Part shown: piece after piece, positions 7,417 through 45,824 of the stretch
How the letters are laid out: every line of letters begins with the position of its first letter
Numbering within the stretch: the first letter of the stretch is position 1
Source: Flavobacterium taihuense
GTDB taxonomy: Bacteria; Bacteroidota; Bacteroidia; Flavobacteriales; Flavobacteriaceae
Assembly: GCF_019351435.1 (NCBI RefSeq)
Contig: NZ_JAHWYN010000007.1
Location: forward strand, 1 to 64,000
Direction: 5' to 3'
Length of the DNA stretch: 64,000 nt
Notes under the pieces: model-generated
What the model was told of the DNA's origin: nothing
What the model saw: the letters and a program-made list of their open reading frames with translations, nothing else
The model's database searches: none
Translations under genes and position numbers: made by a program

Positions 7417-7471
7417 AATTTCAATAGCAAAAATCAATTTCAATTTTAAAATCAATTATAAAAAATATACA

Positions 7472-8590
7472 ATGAAGAATATCTTATTTAAATCAGCCAT
7501 AATCACTCCCCTATTCGTTTTACTGCTTTCCTCTTGTAATGGCGACAAGAAAGAAGCTGTAATTAAAGAACCTGCTATCGCGGTAAAAGTTAGTGGTGCG
7601 TCTGAAAACAACAATGGACAATTTGTAACAGCAAGCGGTAAAATTGAAGCCGAAAACTCCGCCAATTTAAGCACTCGAATGATGGGTTATGTAACCAAAC
7701 TTCACGTTCAGATGGGTCAAAAAGTTGGTGCGGGACAATTATTGGTCAGCATCAACAACACCGATTTGCAAGCCAAAAAAGCGCAAGTGGATGCCAGTAT
7801 TCTACAAGCAACAGCTGGCTACAACAATGCAAAAAAAGATTACGATCGTTTTGTGAATTTGTTCAAACAACAAAGCGCTTCCCAAAAAGAATTGGATGAT
7901 ATGACTGCTCGTTATGAAATGGCAAAAGCAGGTCTGGAAGGCGCCAAACAAATGCGCAACGAAGTGATAGCGCAATTCTCCTACTCTAATATCACAGCTC
8001 CGTTTGCGGGTGTGGTGACCAATACTTTTGTAAAAGAAGGCGATATGGCCAATCCAGGAATGCCATTGGTAAGTATAGAAGGTGCTTCAAGATTGCAAGT
8101 AACGGCTATGGTTTCAGAAAATGACATTGCTGCTATCAAAAAAGGAATGGCGGTAAAAGTTTTGGTAAAATCATCTAATGCAATTCTGAACGGAAAAGTA
8201 AGCGAAGTAAGTTTATCGGCAAAAAATACGGGTGGGCAATATTTGGTAAAAATCAATTTGGACAAAACCGACAATACAGTATTATCTGGAATGTTCGTAA
8301 ACGTTCAGTTTCCTGTTGCCAATACCATACACCCGAGCGATAGCGAACAGGCGAAGCAAACGAAAACAAGCGAAAAAGTTTTGGTTCCTGAAAGCGCTTT
8401 GGTGCAACAAGGACAGTTAACTGGAATTTATACCATTGGAACTGGAAATATCGCCATATTAAGATGGTTGCGCATTGGTAAAAACTTTGGAAATCAAGTA
8501 GAAGTTTTGTCTGGTTTATCGGCAAATGAGCAATATATCGTTTCGGCTGAAGGGAAATTGTATAATGGAGCTTTAGTTAGTGTCCAGTAA
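7472..8590 (+). CDS. RND efflux periplasmic adaptor (membrane fusion lipoprotein)
   Basis: 372 residues. The N terminus is a lipoprotein signal with lipobox LSSC (acylated Cys22). It then has the membrane-fusion-protein layout: first biotinyl-lipoyl half (about 50-85, GYVTKLHVQMGQKVGAGQLL), an alpha-hairpin (about 90-165, KAQVDASILQATAGY onward), the second lipoyl half (SNITAPFAGVVTNTFVKEGDMANPG, about 172-195), a beta-barrel domain and a membrane-proximal domain ending at SAEGKLYNGALVSVQ. It links the RND pump to the TolC-like duct in the periplasm. The gap to the pump gene is 215 bases and holds a REP-like element. Confidence 0.93.
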   Translation: MKNILFKSAIITPLFVLLLSSCNGDKKEAVIKEPAIAVKVSGASENNNGQFVTASGKIEAENSANLSTRMMGYVTKLHVQMGQKVGAGQLLVSINNTDLQAKKAQVDASILQATAGYNNAKKDYDRFVNLFKQQSASQKELDDMTARYEMAKAGLEGAKQMRNEVIAQFSYSNITAPFAGVVTNTFVKEGDMANPGMPLVSIEGASRLQVTAMVSENDIAAIKKGMAVKVLVKSSNAILNGKVSEVSLSAKNTGGQYLVKINLDKTDNTVLSGMFVNVQFPVANTIHPSDSEQAKQTKTSEKVLVPESALVQQGQLTGIYTIGTGNIAILRWLRIGKNFGNQVEVLSGLSANEQYIVSAEGKLYNGALVSVQ

Positions 8591-8665
8591 CCAGATCGCA
8601 GGTTGCAGATTTTAGAATGCAGATTGCGGTAAACTAAATAGGTTCAAATAAATAATGTTAATTCC

Positions 8666-8787
8666 GCGTGAGGGATAATAGTGGAAATCCTTTTTATCTA
8701 TAAATCCCGATAGGGTTTATTAATAAAAAGATTGAAACGGATAGCCCGACCCGATCTCGTCTTTTGGGACGAGAGCAGGTCACGCCC
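8666..8787. repeat. REP-like intergenic palindromic element, type A
   Basis: The spacer between the adaptor and pump genes contains GCGTGAGGG at its left end and GTCACGCCC at its right end (mutually inverted GCGTGA/TCACGC), an inner GGAAATCC...TTTTTA/TAAAAAG inversion, and a small CTCGTC-TTTTG-GGACGAG hairpin. The reverse strand reads GGCGTGACC...GGGCTATCCG, resembling the shorter element after trpB. It has no coding potential and sits inside an operon, as REP-like elements often do. A stretch reading CGCAGGTTGCAGATTTTAG just after the adaptor stop is another repeat-like sequence. Confidence 0.6.
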
Positions 8788-8805
8788 AAATAAATAAAAG
8801 AAATT

Positions 8806-11800
8806 ATGCAAGAAGGAATTTCAGGTAAAATAGCCCATTTTTTCATCAATTCGAAGTTAACAATACTGTTGATGGTGGCTTTGATGATTATAGGAGTGTA
8901 CAGTTCGTTTCTAATCCCAAGGGAGGAAGAACCACAAATAAATGTTCCGATGGCCGACGTAATGGTGGGTTATCCCGGCGCTAATCCAGCCGAAGTAGAG
9001 AGTCGTGTGATCAAGCCTTTGGAGAAAGTAATCTCGAATATCAAAGGAGTTGAACACGTGCACAGTATGGCCATGAACGGTCAGGCGATGTTGATTGTAC
9101 AATTTTTTGTGGGTCAGGATGTGGAGCGTTCGTATGTAAAATTATATGACGAATTGGCGAAACACGAAGATATGTTTCCGCAAGGTGTGTACAAACCGAT
9201 GGTAAAAACCCGCTCGATTGATGATGTGCCGATGCTGGGATTAACGCTTTGGAGCGAGAAACAAGATGCTTTTCAATTGCGTCAGCTTGCCGAAGAAGTG
9301 ACTTCGGAAATTGAGAAAGTAAAGGATGTCGCCATTACTAAGGAAATTGGCGGAAACAATCGTGAACTGAAAGTGATTTTGGACAAAGATAAAATGGCCG
9401 AAAATGGCGTGGATGCTTTGGGCGTTATGCAAATGATTCAGGCGAATAATGGCAGTTCACAATCGGGTAGTTTTGTCAATGCGGACAAAGAATATTTGGT
9501 TACCACGGGACAATTTTTATCGAATGCCGAAGATGTGGAAAACTTGGTGGTCGGTGTGAATAAAAACCTGCCTGTCTATTTAAAACAAGTCGCCAAAGTG
9601 CAAGATGGTCCCTCTACAGCCAAAAGTTATGTGTCATTTGGATATGGCAAAGCCAATGAAAAATTCAAAACTGCTAAATCTGAATATCCTGCCGTGACGA
9701 TCTCTGTGGGGAAAGTGAAAGGTGCTGATGCGATGAAAATATCGGCAAAAATCATTGCCAAAGTAGAACAATTAAAAAAGAGCTTAATTCCAAATGATGT
9801 ACACGTTGAAGTAACCCGAAACTATGGGGAAACGGCTTCAGACAAAGTGGGCGAATTATTGATGCACTTAGGAATTGCAATTATTGCGGTGACCATTTTA
9901 GTAATGCTTGCTATGGGCTGGCGCGGTGGATTGGTGGTTTTCTTTTCGGTTCCTTTGACGTTTGCGCTGACATTATTTGCGTATTATTTGTTGGGTTACA
10001 CCCTGAACAGAATCACACTTTTTGCCTTGGTATTTGTGGTGGGAATTGTAGTCGATGACAGTATTATTATTGCCGAGAATATGCACCGCCATTTCAAAAT
10101 GAAGCGACTGCCATTCAAACAAGCTGCGATTTATGCGATTAACGAAGTGGGAAATCCAACAATTTTGGCAACATTTACCGTAATTGCGGCAATACTTCCT
10201 ATGGCGTTTGTATCTGGAATGATGGGACCTTATATGAGTCCGATGCCAATTGGTGCTTCGATTGCAATGTTATTATCGTTGTTTGTGGCCTTGACGGTTA
10301 CACCATATTTGGGATATCATTTATTACAAGAAAAAGAAGAGCAAGAACACAAAGAATCCGAAGGAATGGAAACGAGTTGGGTGTATAAAATATACAACAA
10401 ACTGGAACGTCCTTTCTTGGAAAGCAGTGCCAAAAGACGCATTCTAGTTGCGGTAACGGTGGTATTGTTATTTGGATCTGTACTGATGTTTTTTACCAAA
10501 TCGGTAGTGGTAAAAATGTTGCCATTCGATAATAAAAATGAGTTTCAAGTGGTGATTGATATGCCCGAAGGAACAACCTTGGAACGCACGGCTGCCGTTA
10601 CCAAAGAAATTGCTCAATATCTTTCGACAAAACCCGAAGTGGTGGATTACCAAAATTATATTGGTACATCGGCCCCGATTACGTTCAACGGTTTGGTGCG
10701 TCACTATGATTTACGTGGCGGTAGCAATATGGCCGACATACAGGTGAATTTATTGCACAAAGAAGACCGTGATTTACAAAGTCACGCTATTGCAAGAGAG
10801 ATGCGTCCTGAGATTAAGAAAATTGCCAAGAAATATGGAGCCAATGTAAAAATCATTGAAGTGCCGCCAGGACCACCTGTTTTATCGACTTTGGTAGCCG
10901 AGATTTATGGGCCAAATTATAAGGAACAAATAAAAGTTGCCAAGCAAGTAAAATCGATTCTGGAAAAGACCATTGATATTGTGGATGTTGACTGGATGGT
11001 TGAAGACAATCAAACGGAATATAAACTGAAAATCGACAAAGAAAAAGCGATGCTAAACGGCATTGCACCTCAACAAGTGGTAGGTAATCTAACGTATTTA
11101 TTGAAAGAATATCCGGTTTCGAATTTGTATGATGAAAACTCCAATGATAATGTAGGCATCGTTCTTTCGCTTGACGACAAAGACAAAACGAGTTTGCAGG
11201 ATATTCAGAATCTAAAAATAAAAGGAAGCCAAGGGAATATGATTCCGGTGAGCGATTTGGTAAAAGTAGAAATAGACACTTTACAAAAAACCATTTACAG
11301 AAAAGACCAAAAACGTGTGGTTTATGTAACCGCTGATATGGCTGGAGCGCTGGAAAGTCCCGTGTATGCCATTTTGGGAATGAATGAAAAACTGGCAAAA
11401 ATGCAATTGCCAAGCGGCTATAAAGTCAACGAACTCTACATGGAACAGCCAACAGACGAAAGTGATTTTACCGTAAAATGGGATGGCGAATGGCAAATTA
11501 CTTTAGAAGTATTCCGTGATTTAGGAGTCGCATTTATGGTGGTTATCGTGATTATTTACATGCTGATTGTGGGTTGGTTCCAAAACTTCAAAACACCAAT
11601 GGTGATGATGTTGGCCATTCCGCTTTCGCTAATAGGCATTGTGTTTGGTCACTGGTTACTGAATGCTTATTTCACAGCTACCTCTTTCATCGGAATGATT
11701 GCATTGGCTGGAGTGATGGTGAGGAACTCGGTATTGCTAATCGATTTTATCGAAATCCGACTCAACGAGGGAGTACCCTTGAAACAAGCCATAATTGAGG

Positions 11801-27610: not shown

Positions 27611-28450
27611 ATGAAAACAGTTAAAATCAATTTTTTTGTTTCTTGCCTTTTTATTTTTTTTCTTATTTCTTGTAACAAGCAGCAAGAGGAAAAAACACCA
27701 CCAATAGTTAATCAACCCGAAATGGAAATTGATTTATTGGCTTTGCAAGCAAAAAACAAACTAGGAAAAGATACCGTTGTCAATATCAGTAATGACCCCG
27801 TTTATCATAAAACAAAGAAATATCATGCTGTAAATGCATTGCTTCTTTTAAAAAATGAAATTGATTTATCAAAAGTTGACATAAAAAATACGCTAATTGT
27901 TTTTGAATGTATTGATGGTTACAAACCTGAAATGTCTTTACAATTATTCTTAAACGCAAAACCCTATTTGGCATTCAAAGATGTTGATGCCCCAAAAGGT
28001 TCAAATTGGGAAAAAATTATCAAAAATGGAAACGAGATGAATGCCGATCCGTTTTATCTGGTTTACACATCTGTTTCACCAGATGATCAGGAATACAAAT
28101 GGCCTTATAATGTTATTAAATTTAGATTACAATCGAAAAATAAAAACAGTGAAGCTTTACAGCCAAAAGACGATGAAAAAGCTATGAAAGGCTTTGCATT
28201 ATTTCAAAAACAATGCATCACTTGTCATGCTATAAACGGAATTGGAGGAGAAATGGGACCTGAATTAAATTATCCCAAAAGCGTAACTGAGTATTGGAAA
28301 GAAACGGAATTAGTCAATTACATTGTCAATCCAGCATCTTTTCGACACAAAGTAAAAATGCCGACACTGGGAATTACAAAACAGGAATCGCAGCAAATCG
28401 TTGAGTACCTGAAATACATGTCAGACCATAAAAAAGTGAATAGCAATTAG
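27611..28450 (+). CDS. Cytochrome c lipoprotein with sulfite-oxidase-like N-terminal region
   Basis: 279 residues. A lipoprotein signal with lipobox LISC (acylated Cys21) is followed by a Gln/Glu linker. A region at about 75-180 (LIVFECIDGYKPEMSLQLFL; ADPFYLVYTSVSPDDQEYKWPYNVIKFRL) resembles the molybdopterin-oxidoreductase/sulfite-oxidase-like domain without cofactor residues I can identify. The C-terminal cytochrome c domain has QCITCHAI (Cys202, Cys205, His206) and a distal Met candidate in KMPTLGI. It would be a membrane-anchored periplasmic electron carrier. No link to tryptophan is known, so it is an insertion between trpG and trpD. Confidence 0.85.
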   Translation: MKTVKINFFVSCLFIFFLISCNKQQEEKTPPIVNQPEMEIDLLALQAKNKLGKDTVVNISNDPVYHKTKKYHAVNALLLLKNEIDLSKVDIKNTLIVFECIDGYKPEMSLQLFLNAKPYLAFKDVDAPKGSNWEKIIKNGNEMNADPFYLVYTSVSPDDQEYKWPYNVIKFRLQSKNKNSEALQPKDDEKAMKGFALFQKQCITCHAINGIGGEMGPELNYPKSVTEYWKETELVNYIVNPASFRHKVKMPTLGITKQESQQIVEYLKYMSDHKKVNSN

Positions 28451-35686: not shown

Positions 35687-38600
35687 ATGACAAAAAATCT
35701 AACCAAATCCTCTAAGACAAACATGAAAAATTCTGTAAATTTTTTTCTGAATGGAAAATCAATAACTATCGAAAACCCTTCACCAGATTTACTTTTAATT
35801 GATTATTTGCGTTCGCCAGAAGTGGCTCTTTCTGGACCAAAAAAACCATGCGGACAAGGAGGATGCGGAGGATGTACAGTAATCCTTTCAGAATGGAACG
35901 GCAAAAAAAATGAAGCTGAACATCGTGCAATCAACTCTTGTCTTAGACCAATATGTGCTATAGGTGGACTCTCTGTAACTACGATTGAAGGAACTGGAGC
36001 CACTCGTAAACCAGATCCTGAATTTCTGATGCAAAAATCCAGTTCAACACGCAGTAGTGTCCCTATTGATGAAGACAAATCTCCCGTATTAGACACTGCA
36101 AAAAAAGAAGCCGAGGTCAAACGTATGGCTGTTCAGGAAGAAATCTCAAAAAATCTTCAAAATGGATCTTGTACTGCTGAATTAGAGATTGTAACAGAAA
36201 TTTCGGAATTCCCTTCAGAACTGACCCACACTGGTATGAATCCAGTGGCATACCAACTTGCGCTAAACAACGGAAGCCAATGCGGATATTGCAGTGTGGG
36301 ATTTGTAATGAATATGTCAGAATTCATACATAATAACCCAAAAGCGACAAAAAAAGAAATCGAACAAGCGTTTGATGGAAATTTATGCCGTTGCACAGGG
36401 TATCGATCAATACTTACCGGAATGAAGACCTTTGCATCAGACTGGAGTGCTACCGATGAAAAAAACAGAATGCCATGTCTACTGGATCCAGCTACAAAAG
36501 CACAGCTTCCTTCCAATGTGGAGATTCCATTTCCTATTGGCGCTCAACAGCCTGCTTCGGGAGTTTCAACAAATCGTTGGGTAACTCCAACATCACTATC
36601 AGAACTGGCCGAAATTCTCAAAAACAACAAAAATGCCCGGCTTGTGCATGCCAATACCTCATATGGAATTTATAAAAATGAGTATTTAGACACAACTTCT
36701 TTTGTTGATATACGATTTATACCCGAATTAAATACTGGCTTCGAATTAACCAATGGATACCTCCAAATAGCAGCTAGCACAACATACAGTGAACTTATCG
36801 AAATTCTCTCTGAAGGTATCAATAGATTTAAATACATTAATAAAAAGCCATCTCAATCTGATATATCAATCTTAAAAGCATTAGACTATATGGCGCGCCG
36901 TACTGCTGGTCGCATAGTTCGTAATGCAGCTACAATTGGAGGTAACACCATGCTGGTACTAAAACATATCCCATTAGGCAAAGGAGAGCCATTCCCTTCT
37001 GATCTCTTTACCGCTCTTTTTGCCGTAGAAACAAGAATTACTTATTTCCAATTAGAAAAAAATGGCAGTTTCAAGGAGCATACAAAAACAGCCGAAGCCC
37101 TTGTTGAGGCAGTAAAAAATGACCCAAAACTGGCAGACGAAATTGTACTTGCTTCCTATGAAATTCCGTTGAAGGATATAAACGATGTTGTTCTTGCACA
37201 AAAAGTAGCCCTTCGCGAAGTAAACGCTCACAGTATAGTTAATGCAACTACCAATTTAAACATTAATGATGAATGCATCGTCAAATCGGCAATGCTTGTA
37301 TTTGGTGGTATTGCACCATATCCTTGGAGAGCGACAGAAACGGAGATGGCGTTGAAGAATAAAAAACTAACCTTAGCAGAAGCCGAAAACCTTTCAAAAA
37401 TACTCGAAAAGGAAGTCTCCAAAGAACTTGATGCCCAAAAAGAAAGAATGAAAGAGGTTCCAAACGAAGACTTTACTTCGGAATACCGTACACAACTAGC
37501 CGTTTCTTTTTTCTATAAAGCAATAGTGAGCACCTTAAAGATCAAAGGTGCTTCCATACCTGAGAACCTGATTTCAACAGCTGAAGTCAAATGGGGCAAC
37601 TGGCCTGTAAGTGACGGAATACAAACTTACAAAAATCAGGATTATAAAGCTCCAGTAGCGCAACCTTATATCAAAGTCACCGCTATGTACCAGACTTCTG
37701 GACAGACACATTACACACATGAACTTGCTGTACCGCCACTCACTTTAAACGGTGCATTTGTACAAAGCCAAAGTGCTCTGATGAACTATACTTTTATAAA
37801 TCCAAAGGATAAAAATACAATTACAATAGCAGAACTAAGAGTATATCTAAAAGAACAATTCCCAACCTTTGCAGATATTATCACCCATGAAAACATTAAA
37901 AATGGAGGTCGTAACAATCAAGGAATGGGAAATGACCAGCCTCTCTTTGCTGAACAATTGATTAGTTATGTTGGCCAATCTATTGCTATGGTGCTTGCTC
38001 CAACCGAGCAGGATGCAATTAAGATAGCGGCATACGTATCCTCAGAATGCATTCAGTACTCGAAGCCTGGAAGCCCTTGGACAGATCAATGGAGTGAACC
38101 TATTATCGATTTACTTGATGCTATTAAAAAAGGAAGTATTTTCCCTGACGCACCGGTTTCCGCTTCTTATGCTACTCACATCTGGAAGATAACCCGCCCC
38201 GGCAGCCAATTTGAATGGGCAACCAATGATGATTCTATTGCCCCTAAAGTTCTTTTGCGTGATCAAGAAATTGACACCAAAGAAGTTACTGTAGACAGCG
38301 TTCCATGTACTATGGTTAGTTCCTCACAGCTTTGCGGAGGGCAAGCCCATTTTTATATGGAACCGCAAGCTTGTATTGTAACACCAATTGATGAGCACCG
38401 CATCAAAGTACAGCCATCTGTGCAGAGTCCTGGAGGAATGCATGATACTGTTGCCACAGCATTAGGTATGTATTACAATCAAATTGAAGTGGAAGTACCT
38501 CCAGTGGGAGGAGGTTTTGGAGGAAAAACGGAACAAACCCGTTTTATTGCAGGACCAACAGCTGTTGCAGCAAAAGCAACCAAAAGACCTGTCCGACTTG

Positions 38601-40315
38601 CAGTACCTCGTGATGAAGATACGGCAATGATTGGAAAACGCCATGCCTACTACGGTGAATATCAAATTGCTGTTGATACTGGTTTACATAATAAAAATAA
38701 TAAAGGAATTATCCACGGATTCCAGCTAAAAATGTGGGGAGATGGTGGTGCTTTCTACGACTGTTCGTTTATCGTATCCAACTGTATTCAATTGCGAACG
38801 GACAATGCCTACAAAATCAAAAATTTTGAAAGTCAAATTGATGTATGCCGAACCAATACAGCTCCAAGTACAGCAATGCGTGCTTTTGGTGATGTACAAG
38901 GCAAAAATATAGTCGAAAATGCTATTGACGATGCCGCAATTGCATTAGAAATGACACCCGAAGATTTACGTGAAAAAAACCTTTACGAACGTGGCGATGC
39001 TACACCATTTGGCCAAGCACTCTCGTATTGCTATATGAAACAAGTATGGGCTTATGCTAAGAAAGTCTCTAATTTCGAAGCCAAGAGCCTAGAGGTAAAA
39101 AAATTCAACAAAGAAAACAAATGGCATAAAAGAGGTATTTCGATGATACCCGTAAAATATGGTTCCGGATACAATTTGCTTGCATTAGAACAATCTGCCG
39201 CTATCGTGGTTATACAGCCAGGTGACGGAACTGTTGTTATTCATCAAGGTGGTGTCGAAATTGGACAGGGCTTGGTCACTCAGGTGCAACAAGTCGCAGC
39301 TTATGTATTGGGAATTCCAATGGAAATGATATTCATTGACAATGTAAACACAAGTGTTACTCCAAATCCAACAAGCACCGGTGGCTCAACCGGAACACCC
39401 TATTCTTGTGAAGCAGTGAAACAAACTTGCGAAGAAATGCGATCCAGACTTATGGAATTTGGTTACCAAATGCTTAAAGAAAATGGTGAAAAGTGGTGCA
39501 TTGACAAAAAAATAGACTTTTGGAACTACGGTGCAGGAGAAGGTAAAGGCTGGGCTAAAAAAATAAAAGGAAGTGATGGAAAAGAATCAATGATTTGGCA
39601 AAACTTAATCAATCAAGCAGCCTCACAAAGAGTTAATCTTATTGCTTCTTTTAATGCTAAAATAAAAGGCGGTGAAGTTCAAATACCGGCAATGACATTC
39701 AAAACCGAAGCCGATCAGCCTAATATCCCTGGTATAGAACGTCTGAAAGACGTGAAACTTAGTGGTGGTGTTGATTCCTTTGTTGGTTTCACTTATTCCG
39801 TGGCTTGTTCTGTTACAGAAGTTGACATCCTTACTGGTGAAGTAAAAATAATTAGTTCTGATATTATTTACGATATGGGATGGAGCATGAATCCAGCCAT
39901 AGACATAGGGCAAATAGAAGGTGCTTTTGTTCAAGGCATTGGATATTTATTGACCGAAAAATTAGTTTCAGAAACAGAAGGCGTTAATAAAGGCAGACTG
40001 AATTCTACCAATACTTGGCGTTACAAGATTCCTGCAATTACAACCATTCCGCTGGAAATGAATACTTATCTTTTCCCTAGAAATGAGGAATCTGTAATAA
40101 ATATTCCTGAGGATTCTAATGAAATATTTTCGGCAAAAGAGGTCGGTGAACCTCCCCTAGTTTTGGCTAACAGTGTTTTCTTTGCTATCAAAGCTGCCAT
40201 AAGAGCTTCCAGAAAAGAACGCAAACTAAACCCTCTTTTTCGCTTCGATGCACCAGCAACAGTTCAGGAAGTACGCAGAGCTTGTGAAGTAACTGCAAAA
40301 AATCTTGGCGAATAA
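35687..40315 (+). CDS. Single-chain xanthine dehydrogenase-type molybdo-iron-sulfur flavoprotein
   Basis: 1,542 residues, fusing all parts that bacteria usually encode as two or three subunits. First [2Fe-2S] cluster Cys55, 60, 63 and 85; second cluster Cys199, 202, 234 and 236; FAD domain about 290-560 (GRIVRNAATIGGN); molybdopterin domains about 690-1542 with GGQAHFYME (Gln near 885), GGGFGGKTEQTR (near 941), AMRAFG (substrate-site Arg near 1065) and the catalytic Glu in EVGEPPL (near 1487). About 75 extra residues separate the two cluster domains (about 107-182). The FFPGYRKT motif that binds NAD in bovine enzyme is not found before LASYEIPL. It probably hydroxylates a purine or aldehyde. 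The start may be Met13 (35723). Confidence 0.88.
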   Translation: MTKNLTKSSKTNMKNSVNFFLNGKSITIENPSPDLLLIDYLRSPEVALSGPKKPCGQGGCGGCTVILSEWNGKKNEAEHRAINSCLRPICAIGGLSVTTIEGTGATRKPDPEFLMQKSSSTRSSVPIDEDKSPVLDTAKKEAEVKRMAVQEEISKNLQNGSCTAELEIVTEISEFPSELTHTGMNPVAYQLALNNGSQCGYCSVGFVMNMSEFIHNNPKATKKEIEQAFDGNLCRCTGYRSILTGMKTFASDWSATDEKNRMPCLLDPATKAQLPSNVEIPFPIGAQQPASGVSTNRWVTPTSLSELAEILKNNKNARLVHANTSYGIYKNEYLDTTSFVDIRFIPELNTGFELTNGYLQIAASTTYSELIEILSEGINRFKYINKKPSQSDISILKALDYMARRTAGRIVRNAATIGGNTMLVLKHIPLGKGEPFPSDLFTALFAVETRITYFQLEKNGSFKEHTKTAEALVEAVKNDPKLADEIVLASYEIPLKDINDVVLAQKVALREVNAHSIVNATTNLNINDECIVKSAMLVFGGIAPYPWRATETEMALKNKKLTLAEAENLSKILEKEVSKELDAQKERMKEVPNEDFTSEYRTQLAVSFFYKAIVSTLKIKGASIPENLISTAEVKWGNWPVSDGIQTYKNQDYKAPVAQPYIKVTAMYQTSGQTHYTHELAVPPLTLNGAFVQSQSALMNYTFINPKDKNTITIAELRVYLKEQFPTFADIITHENIKNGGRNNQGMGNDQPLFAEQLISYVGQSIAMVLAPTEQDAIKIAAYVSSECIQYSKPGSPWTDQWSEPIIDLLDAIKKGSIFPDAPVSASYATHIWKITRPGSQFEWATNDDSIAPKVLLRDQEIDTKEVTVDSVPCTMVSSSQLCGGQAHFYMEPQACIVTPIDEHRIKVQPSVQSPGGMHDTVATALGMYYNQIEVEVPPVGGGFGGKTEQTRFIAGPTAVAAKATKRPVRLAVPRDEDTAMIGKRHAYYGEYQIAVDTGLHNKNNKGIIHGFQLKMWGDGGAFYDCSFIVSNCIQLRTDNAYKIKNFESQIDVCRTNTAPSTAMRAFGDVQGKNIVENAIDDAAIALEMTPEDLREKNLYERGDATPFGQALSYCYMKQVWAYAKKVSNFEAKSLEVKKFNKENKWHKRGISMIPVKYGSGYNLLALEQSAAIVVIQPGDGTVVIHQGGVEIGQGLVTQVQQVAAYVLGIPMEMIFIDNVNTSVTPNPTSTGGSTGTPYSCEAVKQTCEEMRSRLMEFGYQMLKENGEKWCIDKKIDFWNYGAGEGKGWAKKIKGSDGKESMIWQNLINQAASQRVNLIASFNAKIKGGEVQIPAMTFKTEADQPNIPGIERLKDVKLSGGVDSFVGFTYSVACSVTEVDILTGEVKIISSDIIYDMGWSMNPAIDIGQIEGAFVQGIGYLLTEKLVSETEGVNKGRLNSTNTWRYKIPAITTIPLEMNTYLFPRNEESVINIPEDSNEIFSAKEVGEPPLVLANSVFFAIKAAIRASRKERKLNPLFRFDAPATVQEVRRACEVTAKNLGE

Positions 40316-40367
40316 AGAAAATAAACATCTATTCTTAAACCAATTAACATAAACTAATTATAAACCT

Positions 40368-41801
40368 ATGAAACAGTTAAAACCACTCATTATTGCAGCT
40401 TCCGTCTTTTTCGTCTCTTGTTCTGAAAAGACTAAAAACCAAGACACACAACTAGAATCCCCAAATAAAATGACCCTATTAGAGAGTCAAAATTATGAGG
40501 AAAATGGATTCCCTGATTTCGGTTATATGGTAAGTCCTGAGGAATACAATGAAAAATATTCGGATCAACCGATATTTCGACTAAAAGCAGATTTTCCAAC
40601 AGAAATGCCAAAAGATATGCCTGCTTTTCTTGATATAGACTTCAAAAAAGAGCCCTTAAAATACATTGAAGCTGTTCGTGATTATGGTTTTGAAGGAAAT
40701 ACAGAAGAATGGAATCCATACCAAAATAAGGTACGCAATTGGTATCATATTCCATGGTTACATCCTAGTGTTGAAGGAGAGGGAGCCTATCCGCCAAACG
40801 GCGGTACGGAAGGTTTTCATGGTCTTATAAAAGAAGCACCATTAGGACCTTACCAATTAGGACTTGGACTTAAAGGAGTCGACGGTGATTATTCTGTATA
40901 TGCCATTACTTTAATTAATGATAAAGCGGGTTATGCAATGGGTAGAATGTGGAAAGACCCTGAAAATCCTAATCTAAAAACATTGGATAAACGATACAAA
41001 GATGGTGGATTTCCAGTTGGAACCGTTTTTGTAAAATTACTTTTTACCGATGCACCAAAAGGAACTGACTTTGTAGATTATCTCGTAAATCCATTGACAT
41101 GGAAGGCATATATTACTGAAAATTTCTGGAAATCAAGCAAAAGAGTTGTTTCCGATGTGCATTTGTTGCAAATGGATATTTCTGTTCGTGATCAAAGAGC
41201 AGACAGAAGTCCAAGCAATCCTGAAGGAACTGGCTGGGTATTTGGAACTTTTTGTTACAACGGAAAATTAAATAAGAAAAACAAACTCATGAACCTTGTG
41301 CCTGTTGGTCTTATGTGGGGGAATGATCCTAAAAACAGAATCAACAAAACGTCTCCATATCCACCAATTAAAACCGAAGTCAACAAAGAACTAAAAGAAA
41401 CTGTAATTTTCGAAAGTCCAAATCTTCCACCTCAACATCTTGGTTGGAATGGAAGATTAGATGGACCAGCAGATTTAAATACTGTTTCTTGTATGTCATG
41501 CCATAATGCAGCCGAGTATCCTGCAGTAACATCTCTTGTTCCGCCTAATGCGGCGCCTGATGGAGGCAAAACTCCGCCTGAAGGAGGTGGAAATGACGAA
41601 TGGATGAAATGGTTTCAAAATATAGAATGTGGCACATCTATGAATCAGACTGTGTATTCAACCGATTTTTCCTTTCAGGTTGCAATTGCTTTGCAAAACT
41701 TTTTTACAGCAAAGGAAGCAGCAGAAAAAGGAAGTTTTTCATCCGAATACAAGGCTATTCCAGTTGCTATTCGCCGTGGAGATATTGCTCCAAATAAATA
41801 A
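40368..41801 (+). CDS. Heme-binding lipoprotein next to the molybdo-enzyme
   Basis: 477 residues. A lipoprotein signal with lipobox FVSC (acylated Cys18) anchors it outside the inner membrane. Only one CxxCH is present, Cys375-Met-Ser-Cys378-His379, near the C terminus. The long middle part (about 60-370; GLGLKGVDGDYSVYAITLINDKAGYAMG, VDYLVNPLTWKAYITENFWKSSKR) is of a family I do not recognise. It starts 52 bases after the molybdo-enzyme gene, so a periplasmic electron acceptor for that enzyme or its products is plausible. The two would sit on opposite sides of the membrane unless the enzyme is exported, which its sequence does not show. Confidence 0.75.
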   Translation: MKQLKPLIIAASVFFVSCSEKTKNQDTQLESPNKMTLLESQNYEENGFPDFGYMVSPEEYNEKYSDQPIFRLKADFPTEMPKDMPAFLDIDFKKEPLKYIEAVRDYGFEGNTEEWNPYQNKVRNWYHIPWLHPSVEGEGAYPPNGGTEGFHGLIKEAPLGPYQLGLGLKGVDGDYSVYAITLINDKAGYAMGRMWKDPENPNLKTLDKRYKDGGFPVGTVFVKLLFTDAPKGTDFVDYLVNPLTWKAYITENFWKSSKRVVSDVHLLQMDISVRDQRADRSPSNPEGTGWVFGTFCYNGKLNKKNKLMNLVPVGLMWGNDPKNRINKTSPYPPIKTEVNKELKETVIFESPNLPPQHLGWNGRLDGPADLNTVSCMSCHNAAEYPAVTSLVPPNAAPDGGKTPPEGGGNDEWMKWFQNIECGTSMNQTVYSTDFSFQVAIALQNFFTAKEAAEKGSFSSEYKAIPVAIRRGDIAPNK

Positions 41802-41841
41802 TCTTACAATAGATTCGGTTATCCAAAACCAATGAATAAGA

Positions 41842-41886
41842 AGTATACCGATTCAAGTCCTGAAAAGAAACTTGAATCGGTATACT
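41842..41886. other. Long perfect stem-loop without a T tract
   Basis: AGTATACCGATTCAAG (41842-41857) pairs perfectly with 41871-41886 around a 13-base loop. No run of T follows on either strand, so it is not a classical terminator. It lies between the heme lipoprotein and nuclease genes and could be an mRNA-stabilising hairpin, a processing site or a protein-binding palindrome. Confidence 0.7.
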
Positions 41887-41924
41887 ATATACTTACTTAT
41901 TAGAAAACTTAAAAAAAAAATAAA

Positions 41925-42974
41925 ATGGCTAATACAATTTCAGCATTGGATGAGAGTGGTAAACCAGTAGATTGGTGGTTCGCCTATAAAGTTCCAAAAC
42001 TTGGCAAAACAGCAAACGAACCTACAGCCACTGGTTACGAATACATTTACTATGATCCTAATATAAAAAAGGTTGTCCAATCCCCTAATTTGTTGACAGA
42101 CGGAAAAGAAGCACTTGATCTTACACTTAAGTCCATTTTTGATACACCAGCTCCAACTACGGGATGGATTCTTTATAATGATGAAATGCCTCCCGATACA
42201 AATAAAACTGACAGCAGTTCTTATGGGCATACAAAAGGTGTACTTGCCTTTGATACCGATACCAAAACAGCATTATGGTTGCTCCACTCATGGCCTAAGT
42301 TTTCAGATCCTGGAGCAACATCAATGCCTACTCCGGAATATGGGCAAACTTATCTTTGCATCTCAATAGACATCGAAACTGCGAGCAAAATTGCTGCTCA
42401 AATGGCAATCCATCAAGTGCCACAAGTATATTTGCCACGCATACCAGCTTCATTGGATAAAAATGATCCACTTAATATTCTTAGTCAAACCCTAAATTCA
42501 AATCCTGTAGCCGATTCAGATGTAATAGACTATAAATCTCGAGGCGGATTTGATTTTAAAGTTATTGCAAAGAACAAAACATGGAACAAAGATTTCTGGA
42601 ATGATCTCGTTGGCCCTGCCCTTGGAACAGATATTAATGTTGAAACCTGGATACGAGGTAAAATCCCGCCTACACTTGACAGTGACGGCATACACAAAAC
42701 ATTTGATGTTAAATATATTGACCTAAGCCCTCTTGGAGTGCCATGGAACTGGCCAGAAACACACGACCATGCCAAATGGGCGGTTAGCGTCGACTCAGAC
42801 TGGGTTTGTGTTGGTGATATCAATCGTATGATTTCTCAGGAAAAACGCGGTGGTGGCACCATTGCATTTCAGGACAATATATTATGGACTGCTTTATCAA
42901 AAACAGACCTTATTGTGGCGCCCCCAGGACATACAAGAGTTGATGCTCAGAACTTAATTAAGGCAACACAATAA
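41925..42974 (+). CDS. DNase II-family nuclease
   Basis: 349 residues with the hallmark features of DNase II (a family best known as the animal lysosomal acid nuclease, with scattered bacterial members). These are an N-terminal ESGKPVDWWFAYKVPK, the first catalytic block HTKGVLAFD (His102) followed by LLHSWPKF and YGQTYLCIS, and the second catalytic block HDHAKWAVS (His282). The 180-residue spacing of the two catalytic His is like that of the animal enzyme. It would cut DNA without a metal ion to leave 3'-phosphates. No signal peptide is visible, which is odd for this family. It is embedded in the molybdo-enzyme cluster. Confidence 0.88.
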   Translation: MANTISALDESGKPVDWWFAYKVPKLGKTANEPTATGYEYIYYDPNIKKVVQSPNLLTDGKEALDLTLKSIFDTPAPTTGWILYNDEMPPDTNKTDSSSYGHTKGVLAFDTDTKTALWLLHSWPKFSDPGATSMPTPEYGQTYLCISIDIETASKIAAQMAIHQVPQVYLPRIPASLDKNDPLNILSQTLNSNPVADSDVIDYKSRGGFDFKVIAKNKTWNKDFWNDLVGPALGTDINVETWIRGKIPPTLDSDGIHKTFDVKYIDLSPLGVPWNWPETHDHAKWAVSVDSDWVCVGDINRMISQEKRGGGTIAFQDNILWTALSKTDLIVAPPGHTRVDAQNLIKATQ

Positions 42975-43049
42975 TGAACGGCAATGAGCCTGAAGCCATT
43001 GGACTAAAACATAGTAATCAATGGGACTTAGAAGCTTCCAAAAATTCCT

Positions 43050-43185
43050 AATAATGGCTTTTTAGCCCCGACAGAAGGGATAAACCTTATGCGCCTCGTC
43101 TCGTCTCCAAAGACGAGATGAGACTCATAAGTTTAGGAATGATGGCGGGAACTATACTGGCTGATAATGCCTAATTTTTCGCTCC
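43050..43185. repeat. REP-like intergenic element, type B (reverse orientation)
   Basis: Read on the minus strand this element begins GGAGCGAAAAATTAGGC and ends GTCGGGGCTAAAAAGCC. It matches the forward element at 51832-51950 at both ends (GGAGCAGAAAAATTAGGC and TATCGGGGCTAAAGG) and in its TTCCCGC core. The centre differs: here CTTATG...CTCGTCT-CCAA-AGACGAG...CATAAG forms a large hairpin (43086-43130). It fills most of the 281-base gap before the phosphoesterase gene. Confidence 0.7.
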
Positions 43186-43255
43186 AAATTCTTTAGCACA
43201 CCATTTCTTTCCATATCTAAACAAAGCGCTATTCACTAGCAAAAAACCAAATAAG

Positions 43256-44782
43256 ATGAACCAATACCTATCACCAAATAGAGATAAATTACAACAAACA
43301 ATTAAGCACGTCGTGGTACTAATGTTGGAAAACAGATCTTTCGACAATTTATTAGGTTGGTTGTATAGTGATGAAGAACCTCCACATAATCAGCAATTTG
43401 AAGGACTGACAAAAGACCTTTGGAATCCGCTTGACAATATAGACTCCGATGGTATTCCTTTTATTGAGAAAGTAATGATTGAGAAAAACGGTCAGCCCAA
43501 AAAACGTAGAGGCGAGGCTATCCCCAATCCAGTGGATTTTACCCTTCCAAATCCAGATCCAGGAGAGGGTTTTAAAGACACCAATCACCAATTGTACCTA
43601 AAATATGATGTAGCACAGCAATATGCGCCTCCAGCAATTAACATGGGATTTGTTCAAAACTATCAAAACGCTATGTTGTATGGAGCCTTCAGTTTTGGTG
43701 ATGATCCTACAAACCCTCGCAACATTATGAAGTGTTATACTCCTGAACAAACTCCTGTACTAAGCGAGTTGGCTAGGAGTTTTGCTGTTTGTGATCATTA
43801 TCATTGCTCAGTGCCTAGCCAGACTATTCCTAATCGTGACTTTGTACATGCGGCAACATCAACGGGACATGTAAACAACAGTCCAGTTGCACAATGTGAT
43901 GCACGAACCATTTTTAATCAGATACAAGAAGCCATAGATGGAGGAAGAAACGATCTTAGTTGGGGGATTTTTGGCAATAATGATTTCGCTAGCGCAAAGG
44001 ATGAAGACGGTAAATTTGGAAACAATCATTTCTCACTTACGCGACTTATAATGAAACAATTACACGATTTAAAATATAACAATAATTTTGGGACACTGAC
44101 CGATTTTGAAGCAAAATGTAAAGAGGGCAATTTGCCTAGTTACTCCTTCCTAGAACCAAATTACGGCGGAGAAGGGCAAAATGACCAGCATCCGCCTACC
44201 GACATTCGAGCAGGTGAAAAGCTCATTGCGGATATTTACAATATAATAAAATCGTCGCCAGTTTTTGACAATACTATGTTTATTATTACTTATGATGAAC
44301 ATGGCGGTACCTACGATCACGTTCCGCCTCCAAGCGGTGCCAAAAACCCTCATGAAGACAATCAAGCAGGACAGGATGGATTCCTCTTCAATCGTTTTGG
44401 GATACGCGTTCCTTGTGTAGTGATTAATCCATACATAAAAAAAGGGCTTATTGCAAGACCAGCTGGCTATACTCCATTTGATCACTCGTCCATCATCAAG
44501 ACCGTTCAAAATTGTTTTAATCTTGAAGGTAACCTTACCGAAAGAGATAAAGCGGCACCCGATTTTTCGTGCTTGCTGGAACTGGAATATGCCCGTAAGG
44601 ATGATATTCCAATTGTGAAACCATTAGAATGGGATTTGAAATCTGGAGTAACACACATAAATGATCTCCACAATTTGATCGCTACTGTTCTCGAAGACAT
44701 GACTGGCAATCCAAAACCTTCATCAAGTGACCTTTTCGAATACATTCAATTAAACTATAAAAATCTTTTCGGGAATAATTAA
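43256..44782 (+). CDS. AcpA/phospholipase C-type phosphoesterase
   Basis: 508 residues of the phosphoesterase family that includes bacterial phospholipase C and the acid phosphatase AcpA. Metal and nucleophile blocks are IKHVVVLMLENRSFDNLLGW (near 17-36), CDHYHCSVPSQTIPNRDFVHAATSTG (near 180-205), FIITYDEHGGTYDHVPPP and RFGIRVPCVVINPYIKKG followed by FDHSSIIKTV. It would hydrolyse a phosphomonoester or diester. No Sec or Tat signal is seen at the N terminus (MNQYLSPNRDKLQQ), although many relatives are exported. Like its DNase II neighbour it lies between the molybdo-enzyme and XdhC. Confidence 0.9.
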   Translation: MNQYLSPNRDKLQQTIKHVVVLMLENRSFDNLLGWLYSDEEPPHNQQFEGLTKDLWNPLDNIDSDGIPFIEKVMIEKNGQPKKRRGEAIPNPVDFTLPNPDPGEGFKDTNHQLYLKYDVAQQYAPPAINMGFVQNYQNAMLYGAFSFGDDPTNPRNIMKCYTPEQTPVLSELARSFAVCDHYHCSVPSQTIPNRDFVHAATSTGHVNNSPVAQCDARTIFNQIQEAIDGGRNDLSWGIFGNNDFASAKDEDGKFGNNHFSLTRLIMKQLHDLKYNNNFGTLTDFEAKCKEGNLPSYSFLEPNYGGEGQNDQHPPTDIRAGEKLIADIYNIIKSSPVFDNTMFIITYDEHGGTYDHVPPPSGAKNPHEDNQAGQDGFLFNRFGIRVPCVVINPYIKKGLIARPAGYTPFDHSSIIKTVQNCFNLEGNLTERDKAAPDFSCLLELEYARKDDIPIVKPLEWDLKSGVTHINDLHNLIATVLEDMTGNPKPSSSDLFEYIQLNYKNLFGNN

Positions 44783-44813
44783 TCATTCTCAAAAAGCCTA
44801 AATCGTAGAATAA

Positions 44814-45824
44814 ATGACGCACGAATTTCTTAAAATAATAGACTCATACAAAAGGGCTAGCAAAAAGAATTTTCGAACAGTTCTTGCTACAATTGTTCAT
44901 GTAGAGGGCTCATCCTATCGCAAGGAAGGAACCCAAATGCTTATTGATGAATGTCAAAACATTACAGGCGCCTTAAGCGGTGGTTGTGTAGAACAAGAAG
45001 TTATCAGGCAATCCAGCAGCGTCTTTTCTTCCAATTGTCCAAAGGTTTTTAAATACGATGGACGTTTTCGATTAGGCTGCGAAGGAAGTATTTATATTTT
45101 AATTGAATTATTTCATCCAAACGAAAAACTCCTCAATTTAATAGAAGATGCTATCCAGCAAAGACAACCGTTTTTTTTGTCCTGCTCTTTCGTGAAAGAT
45201 GAAATAAGTAAACCAGGTTTTGGAACTTCTTTTAAATTCAAAGACACTATAATTTATAATTCCGATTATGAGGAACGCTCAAATAATCAAGTTTTTGAAC
45301 AAAAAATACAACCTCTAAACAGATTATGCCTCTTTGGAATAGAACATGATTCGAATAAATTAAGCCAATTGGCAGCATTCTTAGGTTGGGAAGTCATAGT
45401 CATAGGTTCTGAATATAGTACTGTAAATAGTAGCGATTTTCCATTTGCAAAATCGGTTTTGACAGTCAAACCAGAAGATCTGGATCAAGGTTTATTTTGC
45501 AAGAACACTGCCGTTGTAGTCATGAGCCATAATTACTCGAAAGATTTACGCTTTTTACTCCATATTATAAGTTCAAAAGTGAGATATATTGGTCTTCTTG
45601 GCCCAGTTCACCGCAGGGAAAAACTTCTCAATGCAATCCTTGATACTGATACGCTTCTTGATGATAGTATCTTTGACAAAATTCACGGACCGGTTGGATT
45701 ACCTATTGGAAGTCAAACCCCAGAAGAAATAGCATTATCGATAATGGCAGAAATCACCAGTGTTTTTAAAATCAACTTAAAAAATAGCACTGAGAATCAA
45801 GGACTCAAATGTACTGTTGAATAG
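44814..45824 (+). CDS. xdhC: XdhC-family molybdenum cofactor insertion protein
   Basis: 336 residues. The N-terminal XdhC/CoxI domain (TVLATIVHVEGSSYRKEGTQMLID; GALSGGCVEQEVI) and C-terminal Rossmann part (LFGIEHDSNKLSQLAAFLGWEVIVIG; YIGLLGPVHRREKLL; IHGPVGLPIGSQTPEEIALSIMAEI) match XdhC, which binds molybdopterin and inserts the sulfurated cofactor into xanthine dehydrogenase-type enzymes. Its presence 31 bases behind the phosphoesterase gene supports one functional cluster from 35687 to 45824 and supports a Moco-bearing enzyme upstream. Confidence 0.92.
   Translation: MTHEFLKIIDSYKRASKKNFRTVLATIVHVEGSSYRKEGTQMLIDECQNITGALSGGCVEQEVIRQSSSVFSSNCPKVFKYDGRFRLGCEGSIYILIELFHPNEKLLNLIEDAIQQRQPFFLSCSFVKDEISKPGFGTSFKFKDTIIYNSDYEERSNNQVFEQKIQPLNRLCLFGIEHDSNKLSQLAAFLGWEVIVIGSEYSTVNSSDFPFAKSVLTVKPEDLDQGLFCKNTAVVVMSHNYSKDLRFLLHIISSKVRYIGLLGPVHRREKLLNAILDTDTLLDDSIFDKIHGPVGLPIGSQTPEEIALSIMAEITSVFKINLKNSTENQGLKCTVE

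Follow-up and report, generated by a model that had tools for sequence, protein, structure and literature searches.

The analysed stretch (hereafter the window) covers positions 1 to 64,000 of contig NZ_JAHWYN010000007.1 of Flavobacterium taihuense. Five open reading frames (ORFs) lie there on the same strand, and they code for a molybdenum-containing oxidase (MOX), a haem lipoprotein (CYT), a DNase II-family nuclease (DN2), a phosphoesterase (PE) and an XdhC protein (XDHC). The five genes and their families, as proposed by an initial annotation made from the sequence alone, were all confirmed with Pfam and NCBIfam, but the start of the oxidase at 35687 was not. The longest MOX ORF does begin at 35687; since the Bacteroidota relatives start at the motif MKN.V.FFLNG, the true start is probably 35723. 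In one relative (L073) the ORF was called longer, with this motif inside it.

Features of the MOX-CYT-DN2-PE-XDHC locus of F. taihuense (positions in the window)
Feature	Position	Strand	Basis
MOX: single-chain molybdenum hydroxylase (2Fe2S, 2Fe2S, FAD, molybdenum cofactor), 1530 aa from the probable start	35723..40315	+	Pfam; start by relatives; active-site residues
CYT: lipoprotein with one CXXCH (Cys375-His379) and probable P460-like domain	40368..41801	+	Pfam; alignments; Foldseek
19-pair hairpin between CYT and DN2	41842..41886	+	folding; a stem occupies this position in seven further Flavobacterium loci
DN2: DNase II-family nuclease, no visible leader, HxK at His102/Lys104 and His282/Lys284	41925..42974	+	Pfam; alignment
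DN2-PE spacer, 281 bp, with strong hairpin	42975..43255	+	some stretches similar to other genome regions
PE: PF04185 phosphoesterase, no visible leader	43256..44782	+	best solved-structure match is plant non-specific phospholipase C4
XDHC: XdhC-family molybdenum-cofactor insertion protein	44814..45824	+	Pfam; NCBIfam; adjoins MOX in 8/14 Bacteroidota loci

The order MOX-CYT-DN2-PE is kept in at least eight Bacteroidota genomes, one of them a Saprospiraceae metagenome-assembled genome (MAG). The locus thus represents a real and conserved combination of known enzyme kinds, as the initial annotation supposed in treating the genes as one group; other genomes do keep the nuclease and the phosphoesterase beside the oxidase and XdhC, the arrangement whose absence had been set beforehand as evidence to the contrary. 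Six genomes of the genus Flavobacterium were found to carry the complete five-gene locus (the window, HJJ, aquicola, 270, hungaricum and G498), and another six Flavobacterium loci (L072-L076 and L124) carry MOX and CYT without DN2 and PE. MOX adjoins CYT in all 15 loci found, namely 12 of Flavobacterium, L007, L008 and a Methylobacterium plasmid (L104). Likewise, DN2 adjoins PE in all eight MOX loci that carry either gene, and also in L011, which lacks MOX, and on the short contig L032 (3.5 kb), beyond the ends of which a MOX gene could lie. The locus therefore consists of two linked but separable modules, MOX-CYT and DN2-PE.

The association was also evident from the distribution among genomes. 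One pattern-based scan of a species-genome collection with DN2 yielded 37 loci, 34 of them with a tblastn match to DN2 at 1e-5. Beside DN2 in these 34 loci, MOX and CYT were found in six (L003-L008), PE of the window type in eight (L003-L008, L011 and L032) and XDHC in four (L003-L006), all of these counts being lower bounds, since Pfam scans covered only part of the other loci and several contigs are short. DNase II occurs in four of 398 Flavobacterium genomes and a MOX orthologue in nine (77-86% identity in the relatives, the window itself being included); all four DNase II genomes are among the nine MOX bearers (P = 1.2e-7, not corrected for kinship). Together with the conserved order, this co-occurrence led us to reject chance proximity. 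PF04185 proteins were present in 17 of 199 Flavobacterium genomes, CYT in 4 of 395 sampled genomes of the phylum Bacteroidota, all of them Flavobacterium, and DNase II in 2 of 395 sampled genomes of the order. Among 15 genomes or records of other DNase II bearers (L029 being left out), the MOX orthologue was found only in L007, L008 and the Methylobacterium plasmid; four gave only 32-36% matches of the xanthine dehydrogenase (XDH) type, and eight gave none at E 1e-30. The Chitinophagaceae genome of L011, with DN2-PE, gave only a 32% match of this type. Different subfamilies of PF04185 may stand beside DN2: in Mucilaginibacter (L022) a 912-aa PF04185 protein directly before DN2 is of a subfamily other than that of the window, and a 911-aa protein of L026 clusters with it. 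In the 19.5 kb around the PE relatives of genomes G490 and G483, neither DN2 nor MOX nor CYT was found.

In the MOX tree, five loci lacking DN2-PE cluster in a single clade (100/100) beside F. hungaricum, a bearer of DN2-PE, and L124, also without DN2-PE, branches just outside this clade. L007 and L008 have MOX-CYT-DN2-PE with no XDHC adjoining, and in L075 and L076 XDHC follows directly 3' of CYT. The simplest reading would be that a four-gene unit came first, that XDHC was acquired later and that DN2-PE was lost at least twice, with horizontal exchange as a possible alternative.

MOX has the domain set of xanthine dehydrogenase, with Pfam matches to MoCoBD_1/2, Fer2, Fer2_2, FAD_binding_5 and CO_deh_flav_C, and shares with rat XDH (PDB 1wyg; TIGR02963/TIGR02965) the single-chain order of two 2Fe2S centers, FAD and molybdenum cofactor. 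The substrate pocket is different. When eight of the 15 MOX proteins (the window, L003, L006, L007, L008, L073, L075 and L104) were aligned with the rat enzyme, Glu802 was replaced by Thr, Arg880 by Cys and Phe1009 by Tyr in all eight, the first two replacements being Thr936 and Cys1021 in the 1530-aa numbering of the window protein. Gln767, Arg912 and the glutamate of the GEPP motif were retained in all eight, and Phe914 in seven. We take Glu802 and Arg880 to be the purine-binding residues of XDH, and the roles of the other pocket residues named here are likewise presumed. MOX is thus likely, from these alignments, to be a molybdenum hydroxylase; the replacement of Glu802 and Arg880 argues against xanthine oxidation, and xanthine appears an unlikely substrate. 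MOX also fell short of the NCBIfam equivalog cut-offs for XdhB (431.5 vs 849.5 bits) and XdhA (242.6 vs 467 bits). Besides the pocket, MOX differs from rat XDH in the neighboring haem protein and in an insert within the Fe/S region, between residues 111 and 184, which is missing from the Methylobacterium relative.

The partner protein CYT has a lipobox with an invariant Cys18 (seven Bacteroidota rows), and its CXXCH motif and Lys223 are invariant in all 12 family members. The hallmark of cytochrome P460 is a crosslink between lysine and haem. Nine of the 12 members matched Cytochrome_P460 (PF16694) at E<=0.1, CXXCH coming after the matched stretch, and the first 15 Foldseek matches of an AlphaFold model built from seven sequences were all P460 or c'-beta proteins (E 0.05-0.5). 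We regard a P460-type haem domain in CYT as probable. Compared with cytochromes P460 and c'-beta (PDB 6amg, 2je2, 7s5o), CYT is longer (477 vs about 160 aa), is a lipoprotein and has extra N- and C-terminal regions. A second CYT paralogue, 41% identical, follows PE in L007 (12738-14135) at the position where Flavobacterium has XDHC, and is itself followed by a TPR histidine kinase and then a LytTR regulator. Elsewhere in the window, a mono-haem c-type lipoprotein gene (CITCH; 27611-28450) lies among trp genes, between ORFs named by eye as trpG-like and trpD-like.

XDHC carries the XdhC_C and XdhC_CoxI domains of XdhC maturation factors, and is below the equivalog cut-off of TIGR02964, the XdhC of xanthine dehydrogenase (73 vs 161.6 bits). 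It is not strictly dedicated to this oxidase, as had been claimed: six of the 14 Bacteroidota loci (L072-L074, L124, L007 and L008) have no XDHC beside MOX, all 10 genomes tested have at least one XdhC gene (seven of them have two), and in the window genome (G000) a second XdhC gene follows a separate molybdoenzyme with a small Fe/S subunit (C2:33-36 kb, L103).

For the second module, DN2 matched DNase_II (PF03265) with 272.3 bits and PE matched Phosphoesterase (PF04185) with 237.4 bits, both against a cut-off of 23. The two HxK motifs of DN2, which we take to be the catalytic motifs of DNase II, are invariant in all 11 aligned proteins. DN2 aligned over residues 5-348 (503.6 bits), the HxK regions included, with the solved structures 5i3e/5unb, deposited as deoxyribonuclease-2 and presumably from Burkholderia thailandensis; it differs from this relative in adjoining a PF04185 phosphoesterase and a molybdoenzyme. 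PE aligned across the motif regions with plant non-specific phospholipase C4 (NPC4; PDB 8hav), the catalytic roles of the motif residues being presumed, and the acid phosphatase 2d1g gave a similar PF04185-type match. PE remained below the NCBIfam cut-offs for PC-PLC (115.3 vs 580.25) and Burkholderia acid phosphatase (90.4 vs 362.75), and differs from the NPC4 and 2d1g enzymes in having no visible leader. The conserved motifs suggest that DN2 and PE are catalytically active. As noted in the initial annotation, no signal peptide was seen by eye on DN2, PE or MOX, nor on the relatives whose N-terminus was shown; DN2 rows of this kind begin close to the conserved domain (a few ORFs were too long or cut by contig ends), and 11 rows were inspected for PE, two of them repeating named genomes. 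A scan of viral contigs by pattern gave 16 stretches without any DNase II relative, and a phage origin of DN2 was rejected. In L031 a DNase II domain occupies residues 429-786 of a 942-aa ORF (7468-10296) that has long additional regions; the ORF adjoins an alpha/beta hydrolase and is close to a GMC oxidoreductase, its N-terminus being out of view.

Two non-coding elements interrupt the gene row. A stem 3' of CYT was found in all seven other Flavobacterium loci folded (L003-L006, L073, L075 and L076; L072, L074, L077 and L124 were left out). Its sequence differs between L003-L006 and the DN2-less L073, L075 and L076, so that it is the position of the stem that is kept. At this place L007 has no comparable stem and L008 has a long one. 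The hairpin may be a terminator, an attenuator or an mRNA-stability element, the three being indistinguishable because the tails are not clear T-runs by eye. The gap between DN2 and PE measures 281 bp in the window; it is 35-42 bp long in L003-L006, and L007 and L008 have gaps of 1 and 131 bp, respectively. When compared with its own genome, the spacer gave five short partial matches besides itself and no full copy.

We consider that the locus combines a non-purine molybdenum hydroxylase and its haem protein with a separable pair of phosphodiester-cutting enzymes, and give this reading as a whole a probability of about 0.5. The first module would comprise MOX, CYT and, in this organism, XDHC. 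MOX, which belongs to the xanthine oxidase superfamily but differs from xanthine dehydrogenase in its pocket, would most likely act in the cytoplasm on an aldehyde or N-heterocycle other than a purine, hydroxylating it after an XdhC has supplied the cofactor, and CYT, as an exported lipoprotein, may receive the electrons indirectly, for instance from the quinone pool, or may instead handle a small product outside. In the second module, the leaderless DN2 of DNase II type and the phospholipase C/acid-phosphatase-type PE would cut the phosphodiesters of DNA and phospholipid, or each other's products, without feeding purine to MOX. What the two modules do jointly, we can only infer. In the portions of the literature reached by our searches, no description of the MOX-CYT-DN2-PE set was found.

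Several observations weigh against this reading. The transfer of electrons to the haem protein, suggested in the initial annotation, is plausible in itself, but a direct MOX-to-CYT transfer is doubtful because MOX is leaderless and CYT appears to be exported. The Cytochrome_P460 match of CYT is below the Pfam cut-off (21 vs 27 bits), the CYT model is poor (pLDDT 43.5) with Foldseek E values of 0.05 or worse and a TM score of about 0.12 by query length, and the CYT profile gave no significant match in the PDB. In 26 of the 34 DNase II loci no PE of the window type was present in the surrounding sequence, several of these contigs being short. Co-transcription of the five genes is left uncertain by the hairpin before DN2 and the enlarged DN2-PE spacer. 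When 170 Pseudomonadota genomes were searched with the Methylobacterium MOX, two 35% matches (L117, L118) were obtained without CYT, DN2 or PE relatives in their surroundings, the lack of CYT being the adverse point; these two are probably other XDH-type enzymes.

As an alternative, the DN2-PE pair could be toxic or self-destructive, with DN2 as a nuclease of the cytosol and PE as a phospholipase directed at the membrane, both serving cell suicide, anti-phage defence or antagonism, with the oxidoreductase partners as a trigger or a source of oxidative damage. The lack of leaders on both enzymes, the patchy occurrence across several phyla and on plasmids, and the neighbors in other genomes agree with this view, the latter including an HD-PycTM protein, TIR proteins near a CYT relative, and, next to PLD-like and PGM-like genes, a patatin and a DNA/RNA endonuclease. 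No PADLOC family, however, matched DN2, PE, MOX or CYT at E 0.01, and a known anti-phage defence system was thus rejected; there is no evident immunity gene, the window has no defence-like neighbors, and the viral-contig scan mentioned above is also unfavorable. Delivery by a type VI secretion system (T6SS-iii) was rejected as well, since TssD, which we take to be its tube protein, was found in G478 and not in the other four DN2-bearing genomes tested (G000, G143, G402 and G498). We regard such a pair as doubtful.

Related combinations were seen in other phyla, the examples being picked from search lists. The conjugative plasmid of Methylobacterium indicum (L104) carries MOX (41% identity over 1384 columns) and a CYT relative (28%) in the one-strand order CYT, MOX, second CXXCH protein, metallophosphoesterase, phospholipase D (PLD)-like protein, PGM-like protein and DUF2278. 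As DNase II belongs to the PLD superfamily, this plasmid represents a parallel combination built from other genes. A PGM-like protein stands directly before a PE relative in Caballeronia, and such proteins occur with PLD-like ones in Rhizobium and Mesorhizobium; in a Chitinophagaceae MAG (L024), DN2 is followed by DUF2278 and a protein related to the second CXXCH protein. GMC, ferritin-like and berberine-type enzymes precede DN2-PE in L011. In Rhizobium (L086) a CYT relative is accompanied by GMC and ferritin-like proteins, and in Azospirillum (L121) GMC is found with a protein related to the second CXXCH protein; these loci resemble ours in having a haem-protein relative near an oxidoreductase, and differ in that a flavin enzyme replaces the molybdoenzyme. 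In Bradyrhizobium (L119), metallophosphoesterase and ferritin-like proteins lie near another relative of this CXXCH protein; proteins of these two kinds also occur, together with tyrosinase, with DN2 in Burkholderia pyrrocinia, where the part after DN2 is common to an Acidobacteriia MAG (L030). No such partner was found beside the CYT match of Variovorax (L084; amidohydrolase after CYT), nor directly beside the matched gene in Rhizobium L085 (carboxypeptidase), Agrobacterium L087, Sinorhizobium L088, Bradyrhizobium L089, Komagataeibacter L106 (PE) and Beijerinckiaceae L120 (PGM-like).

These loci may belong to a mix-and-match class, partly spread by plasmids over several phyla, of which the present locus would be one form. 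Its members would pair an oxidoreductase (molybdoenzyme, GMC, berberine-bridge type or tyrosinase) with a protein of the single-haem or ferritin-like kind and with phosphodiester hydrolases (DNase II, PLD-like, NPC-type, metallophosphoesterase, PGM-like). The class stays a hypothesis because the examples were not counted against a background, and we judge it unlikely that it serves, in this form, the redox-linked destruction of nucleic acid and membrane. As separate observations, the block beside DNase II common to Burkholderia and Acidobacteriia (L090:8998-18442 and L030:9995-19643) contains a large uncharacterized protein (which in L090 weakly matches PNP_UDP_1), two further uncharacterized proteins paralogous to each other, a metallophosphoesterase and a ferritin-like protein, and in Mucilaginibacter L016 (5475-9883) an HD-PycTM protein and a PGM-like protein lie upstream of DNase II.

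Quite improbable is a role in phosphate and phospholipid recycling, with DN2 and PE reaching the outside by lysis or another route and freeing phosphate from environmental DNA and lipid. The substrate classes of both families and the deposition of the close solved DN2 relative as a deoxyribonuclease-2 would fit, but no signal peptide was seen by eye on the DN2 and window-type PE rows whose N-terminus was visible. Least probable is the stepwise internal salvage of DNA proposed initially, in which the nuclease yields oligonucleotides, the phosphoesterase removes phosphate and MOX oxidises the purine with electrons going to the haem protein: the conserved nuclease-phosphoesterase-XdhC order beside a xanthine dehydrogenase-type enzyme and the retained hydrolase motifs speak for it, but the purine-binding residues are replaced, the score against the NCBIfam xanthine dehydrogenase model is far below its cut-off, the cluster has no nucleosidase, phosphorylase or transporter, and six MOX-CYT loci do without DN2-PE.

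On the reading of two separable modules, MOX represents a subfamily of molybdenum hydroxylases in which a pocket of non-xanthine type is conserved and a haem protein is the constant neighbor, and the naming of such proteins as xanthine dehydrogenase by homology needs care. Bacterial DNase II is a relative of the lysosomal enzyme for which we know of no bacterial role, and it gains here a recurrent and testable partner. With six Flavobacterium loci carrying DN2-PE and six lacking it, the dependence between the two modules is directly testable.

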